DNA of 64,000 bases from Gemmatimonas groenlandica (lineage in GTDB: Bacteria; Gemmatimonadota; Gemmatimonadetes; Gemmatimonadales; Gemmatimonadaceae). How positions within the stretch are numbered: position 1 is the stretch's first letter; each line of letters starts with the position of its first letter. The stretch is from positions 3,844,001 to 3,908,000 of the forward strand of contig NZ_CP053085.1 of assembly GCF_013004105.1 (NCBI RefSeq). Direction: 5' to 3'. Position numbers and translations under genes: made by a program. Of the stretch, positions 2,494-60,595 are shown one piece after another. A model generated the notes under the pieces. That model was not told where the DNA came from, did not search any database, and saw nothing but the letters and a program-made list of their open reading frames with translations.

Positions 2494-2512
2494 GGTGACG
2501 GGCGGGATTGTT

Positions 2513-2610
2513 GAACTGATCACGCGGAGACGCAGAGGGCGCAGGGATCGCAGAGAAACGACTCTCTCTGCGGCCTCTGCGCCCTCTCTTTTTATCGGCG
2601 TGATCAGTTC
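2513..2610. repeat. Long imperfect inverted repeat (hairpin)
   Basis: GAACTGATCACGC at 2513-2525 is exactly mirrored by GCGTGATCAGTTC at 2598-2610. Inside, 2534-2556 (AGAGGGCGCAGGG then CGCAGAGA) is mirrored with few mismatches by 2563-2589. The arms are about 45 nt, rich in GCAGAGGGCGCAGAG, a simple motif often seen in dispersed repeats of GC-rich bacteria. It lies between the ends of two convergent genes, so it could also act as a bidirectional terminator, but there is no clean T-tract. Confidence 0.8.
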
Positions 2611-2633
2611 AGCGATCCATCAAACCGCACGCG

Positions 2634-11887: not shown

Positions 11888-11906
11888 ACGAACAGCAACT
11901 GCCCTG

Positions 11907-12099
11907 ACCGCGAATTGGCGCCAATGTCCACGAATGAACAGCAAAAACATTCGTGTAGTGGTCCGTGGCAATTAGCGGTTATGCAGTTTGTTTTTTGCTT
12001 TTAAACAAAAGCAACAGCCTTACCGCGAATGGGCACGAATGCCCGCGAATGAACAGCAACCGCAACTAATCTGTGTAGTTGTCCGTGTTGATTCGCGGT
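11907..12099. repeat. Two tandem hairpin-forming repeat units (TACCGCGAAT family)
   Basis: Two related units start at 11907 and 12022 (spacing 115). Each opens with ACCGCGAAT, continues to a CGAATGAACAGC block, and closes with a GTCCGTG...GCGGT block that is the reverse complement of its own start, so each unit can fold on itself. T-rich tails (TTTGTTTTTTGC, TTTGCTTTTGC) follow each unit. The same family occurs at 60247-60586. The stretch 11888-12249 contains this array and the ribosome site of the GxxExxY gene, and nothing else I can support. Confidence 0.8.
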
Positions 12100-12249
12100 C
12101 ATGCAGTTTGCTTTTGCTGTTCAACAAAAGAAATCAATTCGTGGCGAACGCGAGGAACAGTGCGTTCGAAAGACAGTGGCGGCGTATTTGTGGTGAGTAC
12201 GATCCGTCGCCGCTGCTCCAGGTTGTATGTGACTCAACCCGGAGAAATC

Positions 12250-12717
12250 ATGAGCGACGCACCGCGGAAGCCCCTGTTGCACCAGGAGCTCAGCAGCCAG
12301 ATCATCAGCGCGTTCTACGAGGTGTACAACACCATGGTCCGCGGATTACTCGAAGGGTGCTACCAGAACGCACTATTCGTCGAGCTGCAGGAGCGTGGCA
12401 TCCCCGTTGATCGCGAAGTGCCCTTCGGTGTTCGCTACAAGGAGCGCATCGTCGGCCAGTATCGCGTGGACCTGCTCGTCGATCGGAAGGTGATCGTCGA
12501 ATGCAAGACCGCGGATACGTTGCATTCACAGCATGAGTCGCAGATGCTGCACTACCTCAAAGCCACCAACACCGAGCTTGGCCTGCTGATGTACTTCGGC
12601 ACCAAGCCGCTCTTCCGGCGGTTCGTGCACACCAGCGGCTCGGCGGCCTCCTTCGGCAATGCGGAGGAGGCCGCCGTGACGGAAGACGTTACGCCAGCGC
12701 GCCGGGAATCAGCGTGA
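12250..12717 (+). CDS. GxxExxY family protein, PD-(D/E)xK nuclease-like
   Basis: 155-aa protein. The family signature is exact: G32-LL-E35-GC-Y38. A PD-(D/E)xK-like active site follows as D74 in QYRVDLLV, then E84-C-K86. This fold belongs to the PDDEXK_3 group; activity and biological role are not established. Start ATG 12250 follows a clear GGAG site (12241-12244) with 5 nt spacing. The last 29 nt overlap the end of the convergent aminotransferase gene. It sits directly downstream of a pair of dispersed hairpin repeats. The tail after about residue 128 is probably not part of the domain. Confidence 0.9.
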   Translation: MSDAPRKPLLHQELSSQIISAFYEVYNTMVRGLLEGCYQNALFVELQERGIPVDREVPFGVRYKERIVGQYRVDLLVDRKVIVECKTADTLHSQHESQMLHYLKATNTELGLLMYFGTKPLFRRFVHTSGSAASFGNAEEAAVTEDVTPARRESA

Positions 12718-23162: not shown

Positions 23163-23170
23163 ATCGTTAA

Positions 23171-23290
23171 CCGCCAAGGGCTTAGGAGGCAGGAGGGAGG
23201 GTGTCAGGGTGGAGGAGGCAGGGTCTGCGCGCGACGTTGCCGCCTCCTCCGCCCGAACGCCCTCCTCCCTGCTTCCTCGGCCGTTGGCAG
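23171..23290. repeat. Large inverted repeat
   Basis: The left arm 23171-23201 (CCGCCAAGGG then AGGAGGCAGGAGGGAGGG) is mirrored by the right arm 23260-23290 (CCCTCCTCCC then CGGCCGTTGGCAG). A second nested pair (GGAGGAGGC at 23211 and GCCTCCTCC at 23242) lies inside. The purine/pyrimidine arms could form a long hairpin between the DUF2461 and VC0807 genes. Confidence 0.75.
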
Positions 23291-23339
23291 TTCGCCTTCC
23301 TCGCGGGTACCGCCCACCCCCGCCCCCCAGTGAGATTCC

Positions 23340-60228: not shown

Positions 60229-60246
60229 CGGCTTCACGAACTGCTC

Positions 60247-60586
60247 TACCGCGAATTATCGCCGATGCCCGCGGATTGAACTGCCAAAATATTCTGCATG
60301 AGTGCTCGCCGCGGTGGTTGTCGCGCTGGCGAGAGCAATCTGTGATTTGTCCGCGTTGATCAGCGGTAAAGTTGTTGGTTTTTGCCGTTTCCACGAACAG
60401 CTATACCGCGAATTGTCGCCGATGCCCGCGGATTGAACTGCCAAAATATTTTGCATGAGTGGTCGTCGCGCTGGTGAGAGCAATTCGTGAGTCACCCGCG
60501 TTGATCAGCGGTAAGTCTGTTCCTTTTTGTCTTCCTGAACAGCTCTACCACGGATTGTCGCCGATGCCCGCGGATTGAACTGCAGA
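60247..60586. repeat. Array of hairpin-forming repeats, two and a quarter units
   Basis: Units begin with TACCGCGAAT at 60247 and 60404 (period 157) and TACCACGGAT at 60546 (truncated at about 60586). Each contains CGCCGATGCCCGCGGATTG then AACTGC near its start, and closes with GCGTTGATCAGCGGTAA, whose reverse complement resembles the unit start, so each full unit is a long imperfect palindrome. The family also occurs at 11907-12099. The stretch 60229-60595 holds only this array. Confidence 0.85.
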
Positions 60587-60595
60587 AGCACGCGA

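Follow-up and report, generated by a model that had tools for sequence, protein, structure and literature searches.

Many GxxExxY genes of Gemmatimonadota stand beside hairpins built of short tandem units, and in one Gemmatimonas genome each of five such genes is paired with a hairpin family of its own. We analysed a 64,000-nucleotide stretch of the Gemmatimonas groenlandica chromosome, here called the window (bases 3,844,001-3,908,000 of a 5.18-Mb single-contig genome), together with relatives from Gemmatimonadota. This genome has six GxxExxY genes, five of which adjoin a hairpin with arms of short tandem units of about 8-10 nt. The unit differs from gene to gene, being CGCGAAT at the window gene, CTTCGCG at L009, CTCTGCG at L008, GATACGAAC at L005, and CACGGAT/CACCGAT at L007. 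The sixth and most diverged gene (L010; genome 3391047-3391367, in a 335-codon open frame) has no hairpin in its flanks. Both the association of gene with hairpin and the pairing of gene with family are well supported, and we regard the chances as evenly balanced that the GxxExxY protein itself spreads the hairpins of its private family.

The window gene encodes a conserved PD-(D/E)XK-type protein

The protein encoded by the window gene (Table 1) is a full match to the TIGR04256/PF13366 family (126 bits to TIGR04256, cut-off 35; 124.8 bits to PF13366 PDDEXK_3, cut-off 22) with the catalytic residues kept, which bears out the initial annotation of a GxxExxY gene with an intact D74/E84-C-K86 site. 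The motif that names the family reads GLLEGCY here (G32, E35, Y38). In an alignment of 69-75 relatives, from which plasmid rows were left out, E35, Y38, D74, Q98, and Y102 never vary, and conservation exceeds 90% at E84 and K86. The features expected of a PD-(D/E)XK protein are all present, namely the conserved D, the ExK, the following Q, and, in an AlphaFold2 model (mean pLDDT 89), a restriction-endonuclease-like fold. The best fold match of the model was the Cas4-like nuclease SSO0001 (Z 9.6, rmsd 3.2, 99 aligned), followed by restriction enzymes and Hjc resolvases (Hjc Z 6-7). Because middling Z values of this kind are common, the matches speak to fold and not to function, and the model supports a PD-(D/E)XK nuclease fold for the window protein. 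The gene is under purifying selection, with dN/dS values of 0.09-0.29 across six orthologs. In the open-access literature, GxxExxY, TIGR04256, and PF13366 receive passing mentions only, with no function or repeat partner given.

Table 1. Hairpin units and GxxExxY gene located in the window (window coordinates)
Feature	Position	Strand	Basis
Solo hairpin, CTCTGCG/GATCACGCAGAG family (class 2)	2505..2618		Inverted-repeat score 48; assigned to L008 hairpin, z 21
First upstream hairpin unit, CGCGAAT family (class 8)	11903..12003	+	Direct repeat of 12013-12130 unit, 84-86%
Second upstream hairpin unit, arms ACCGCGAAT.../...ATTCGCGGT	12013..12130	+	Repeat comparison; left-arm pattern; fold z -2.65
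GxxExxY gene	12250..12717	+	155 aa, PD-(D/E)XK nuclease; D74, E84-x-K86, Q98, Y102
Solo hairpin, 7-nt-unit family (class 5)	23169..23292		Inverted-repeat score 47; class z 32
Distant CGCGAAT-family unit	60240..60391	+	Pattern match, 0-1 mismatches; missing at equivalent intergenic site in G015 and G011
Second distant CGCGAAT-family unit	60395..60535	+	92% identical to 60240-60391 unit over 84 nt
Half unit, left arm only, end of 60-kb cluster	60534..60590	+	Right edge GAACTGC meets conserved flank ACTACTGCGGCACC

Hairpin units at 12 kb and 60 kb form one family

The initial annotation had also placed repeats at 12 kb and 60 kb in one family, described both as ending in GAACAGC or GAACTGC, and located the former upstream of the GxxExxY gene. 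All of this holds. A degenerate left-arm pattern matched 39 genome sites in about 15-16 clusters, the backwards control giving 0; the described ends are present in both repeat types; and two units precede the gene, while the cluster at 60240-60590 comprises two and a half units of the CGCGAAT family. The further statement that both repeats can fold on themselves held at the gene and was weak at 60 kb. Folded as single-stranded DNA, the unit at 11903-12003 did better than 200 of 200 shuffles (z -3.74) and its neighbor at 12013-12130 gave a z of -2.65 against shuffles, and the two full 60-kb units (z -1.2 and -1.3) were not clearly better than theirs. The arms of the window family are imperfect, and the window gene's own hairpin lies below the inverted-repeat threshold (score 40). 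A search against Rfam gave no family matches.

Gene-linked hairpins belong to dispersed families, one family per gene

An unbiased scan covering 1.264 Mb of this genome returned 63 inverted repeats, of which 35 fell in four gene-linked families, 14 in families with 7-nt units, 4 in a class of REP-like palindromes, and 10 in no family. The gene-linked families in the scan number four, without the window family, because the window arms are too imperfect for the threshold. Other than the gene-adjacent copy, members of these gene-linked families are separated from any GxxExxY gene by about 10 to 2,300 kb, so the hairpins beside the genes are members of dispersed families, with one family for each gene. 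The CTCTGCG/GATCACGCAGAG family has its gene-linked copy at genome 2458095 and a solo copy in the window (Table 1). It had been suggested that the distance between repeats and GxxExxY genes be measured: the genes are near repeats, and single repeats are mostly far from the genes.

Gene and hairpin could together make up one mobile element that carries the gene, the solo hairpins being its deleted remains. In favor of such an element, gene and hairpin are tightly joined: in several independent genes the stop codon falls on the hairpin edge or within it. Against it, the dispersed solo copies are whole, sharp-edged units of about 95-160 bp in which no remnant of a gene was seen, every family was found with a single gene but many solo hairpins, and the gene of the window family occupies one conserved locus in its orthologs; we consider this reading very improbable.

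Further kinds of hairpin are dispersed in this genome. The class 5 hairpin, AACTGCCAA...GGAGGCAGGGAGGAGGGTGTCAGG, is made of 7-nt units and occurs in the window (Table 1) and at eight other sites in the sampled genome, and a REP-like palindrome, TTCAAGGGGTCAGAGTCGTTGAA, lies at genome 173350, 467125, 2740368, and 3142569. No partner gene for classes 5 and 6 or for the REP-like class was recognised among ten neighbouring ORFs, and no transposase was found among the neighbouring ORFs tested near TTCAAGGGGTCAGAGTCGTTGAA.

Hairpins adjoin GxxExxY genes of Gemmatimonadota far more often than expected by chance

Counting a hairpin as present when an inverted repeat scored at least 40 within 500 bp of the gene, we found one beside 51 of 95 GxxExxY genes of the genus and its near relatives, the other 44 having none at this threshold, and beside 10 of 24 in the rest of the phylum. 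The same criterion was reached by 2 of 30 ParE toxin genes, 12 of 50 four-helix-bundle genes (TIGR02436), and 3.6% of positions drawn at random from the own genome. The binomial p for the GxxExxY genes is about 8e-48, although many of the 95 loci are orthologs and such p values overstate their independence. The association is strong within Gemmatimonadota. Plasmid and Bacteroides loci had a hairpin close to the gene in one case of eight, that locus being a Gemmatimonadota plasmid; at the seven loci outside Gemmatimonadota no hairpin lay close to the GxxExxY gene, and at one of the Bacteroides loci (L074) a hairpin with a 7-nt unit stands about 640 bp from the gene.

The periods of the hairpins differ between the two gene types. 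Where a period could be read, it was 8-11 nt in 35 of 36 hairpins at GxxExxY genes, with one of 6 nt and none of 7 nt, versus 7 nt in 6 of 7 at four-helix-bundle genes. Several TIGR02436 loci (L191, L205, L206, L212, L422, and others) have a short-period hairpin with a 7-nt unit, mostly just downstream of the gene, and these genes with their 7-nt hairpins may constitute a parallel system.

As a rule, the best hairpin flanks the gene on one side only. Of the 51 in the genus and near relatives, 36 are downstream and 15 upstream, and the GxxExxY stop codon often coincides with the hairpin edge. This placement bears on a different account, in which another enzyme (a RAYT or an IS200-type transposase) spreads the hairpins, the hairpins act as transcription terminators or mRNA-end protectors, one of them supplies the 3' end of each GxxExxY gene, and common ancestry or joint transfer keeps gene and family together. 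The downstream majority, often at the stop codon, is in its favor, as are the many hairpin families found at one intergenic site between two genes (see below) and the presence of the REP-like hairpins TTCAAGGGGTCAGAGTCGTTGAA in the genome. Yet it leaves unexplained why each gene has its own family and why ParE genes are short of hairpins; the window and CTTCGCG hairpins are upstream of their genes; and the families occupy different sets of genomes, each set fitting its own gene. We judge this account unlikely.

Copy number of two families depends on the cognate gene

The window gene or an ortholog (81-89% identity) is present in seven genomes including the own genome, at one conserved locus across the orthologs, and in every one of them the upstream unit is retained, its copies ranging from one to at least three. 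Members of the window family are found in all 7 carriers and in 3 of the 54 other genomes (Fisher p 2.8e-7). Pattern matches number 21, 14, 12, 5, 3, 3, and 1 in the carriers and 3, 2, and 1 in the non-carriers G008, G024, and G047, respectively; once gene-adjacent copies are removed, the family is dispersed in only 5 of the 7 carriers. The CTTCGCG family is likewise found in 5 of 5 carriers (33, 16, 11, 10, and 4 matches) and in 1 of 56 other genomes (G025, 2 matches; p 1.0e-6), and within a close clade its copy numbers separate completely by gene presence (p 0.005). Repeat number had been predicted to change with the gene, and it does so in both families. Copy number thus depends on the cognate gene for two families, with relatedness only partly controlled.

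Two other families were followed among relatives. The GATACGAAC family has many copies in G000 and G011, both of which carry the gene at a common locus. G014, G015, and G017, which are nearer to G000 by DNA identity, are without the gene at that locus, and of these G014 and G015 have no copies and G017 has two weak matches. The L007 family tracks its gene in G000, G014, and G017; in G015 copies are present and the locus is missing from the assembly, and G011 has a few copies without the gene. Since the set of host genomes differs from family to family and in each case fits the family's own gene, common descent alone explains the distribution poorly. Shared ancestry is not fully removed from these comparisons, because the carriers are related to one another and several of the assemblies are not complete.

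One of the non-carriers, G008, contains a CGCGAAT-like array (C62:292530-293229), and its own GxxExxY gene (L373) adjoins a similar unit; array and gene are perhaps a parallel family.

The same distribution bears on the possibility that the GxxExxY protein restrains hairpins. It would then be a structure-specific nuclease which, much as a Holliday junction resolvase does, cuts or resolves cruciforms formed by its own family, and it would be kept because that family is present. The fold neighbours of the model, SSO0001 (Z 9.6) and the Hjc resolvases (Z 6-7), and the purifying selection on the window gene would both suit such a role. Fold likeness at this level shows no function, however, and a restraining protein predicts that copies persist where the gene is missing, whereas they are nearly confined to carriers. 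We consider restraint improbable.

Hairpins are present or absent at conserved sites

The 60-kb cluster (window 60230-60594, G000) is absent from a conserved site in two relatives, G015 and G011, in which 28-42 bp join the same two genes. Close to this site G014 and G017 have an L007-family hairpin, which appears to lie in the end of the following gene. AACTGC is present at both edges of the cluster, and either a duplication or the element's own sequence could account for it. Further presence/absence pairs of hairpins were found among the relatives. For the L005 gene no clean empty site was found, its right flank differing in relatives. Between argG and the gene upstream of the L007 locus, the hairpin family differs among groups of relatives, and this argG intergenic site (genome 3502608-3502742, L280-L289) resembles an insertion hot spot.

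MITEs and insertion sequences carry terminal inverted repeats and a target-site duplication. The hairpins have inverted arms, and no target-site duplication or target motif was established for them. TGAAC was rejected as an insertion target (2 of 35 gene-linked elements, with 4.5% expected), and an AACNGC edge motif (19 of 51, with 17% expected) is suggestive only. Complementarity of own arms versus other arms, considered as proof of compensatory change, gave a mixed outcome and was not used; the comparison is biased because the elements were picked by self-complementarity.

A proposed source locus for private hairpin families

We propose that a GxxExxY gene and its neighbouring hairpin may be the locus from which a private family of short non-autonomous elements arises. 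The small Cas4/RecB-like PD-(D/E)XK protein would recognise its own family's hairpin, probably by reading the tandem 8-10-nt units once the hairpin is extruded from single-stranded or cruciform DNA, and cutting by the protein, combined with host repair or replication, would give rise to new hairpin copies elsewhere. Recognition, cleavage, and copying by the protein are steps that we infer from the pairing and the copy numbers. Several points weigh against the proposal: most carriers of a family are closely related, and common descent could account for the copies they share; 44 of the 95 genes had no hairpin at the threshold; the seven loci outside Gemmatimonadota had none close to the gene; and non-nuclease TIGR02436 genes adjoin hairpins too (12 of 50). 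Annotated GxxExxY proteins occur in several phyla with no function attached to them, and the pairing described here gives each a predicted substrate. With one family for each gene, function could be tested by a single cleavage assay in which the specificity controls are built in.

Comparison with known systems

The closest parallel is the RAYT/REP system. RAYTs, which replicate REPINs, are single-copy genes passed on vertically (PMC8049555), and REP abundance depends on the cognate RAYT (PMC3686654). The GxxExxY system resembles it in having a vertically inherited gene, a sequence class proper to each gene, gene-dependent copy number, and numerous short, palindromic, non-autonomous copies spread over the genome (PMC3686654, PMC8049555), and single repeats lie mostly far from the GxxExxY gene, as REPs do from RAYT genes. 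The enzymes differ: a RAYT is an HUH (Y1) tyrosine transposase, whereas GxxExxY proteins belong to another superfamily, that of the PD-(D/E)XK nucleases. The initial annotation was correct that the window protein is not a RAYT, as Pfam gives PDDEXK_3 and no Y1 domain. The hairpins are also longer than REPs (about 95-160 bp) and made of tandem 8-10-nt units, inspection by eye of the edges of 35 gene-linked elements revealed no consistent GTAG/GTGG tag at the hairpin foot, and the hairpin is usually on one side of the gene, whereas REPs flank RAYT genes on both. The likeness to RAYT/REP drawn at the outset is thus upheld for the pattern, which extends to other genes and families, and fails for the enzyme, the tag, and the two-sided flanking; the GxxExxY/hairpin system follows the RAYT/REP pattern but is not a member of it.

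CGTC-tagged REPs (PMC3733652) are similar in being dispersed palindromes for which no dedicated enzyme was known. The GxxExxY-linked hairpins differ from these in their longer arms, internal periodicity, and candidate partner gene, and no CGTC tag was seen in them. With Cas4/SSO0001 and Hjc the window protein shares a restriction-endonuclease-like core, seen in weak Cas4 profile matches and in fold similarity. Cas4 has a four-cysteine iron-sulphur site, which the window protein lacks because it has two cysteines only, and no CRISPR partner was seen beside the window gene. The S23/IVS-like four-helix-bundle genes (TIGR02436) are alike in that short-period hairpins adjoin them in the same genomes, although they are unrelated to GxxExxY genes, encode non-nucleases, and have the 7-nt unit described above in place of one of 8-11 nt. 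We found no earlier description of the GxxExxY-hairpin pairing in the open-access literature, which misses most subscription journals. Tentatively, and at slightly less than even chances, GxxExxY nucleases may represent a second, independent solution of the RAYT/REP kind, with several pairs per genome and the four-helix-bundle genes with their 7-nt units in parallel. If so, an enzyme that has no relation to the tyrosine transposases can maintain dispersed bacterial palindromes, and this would bear on other REP-like repeats for which no enzyme is known.
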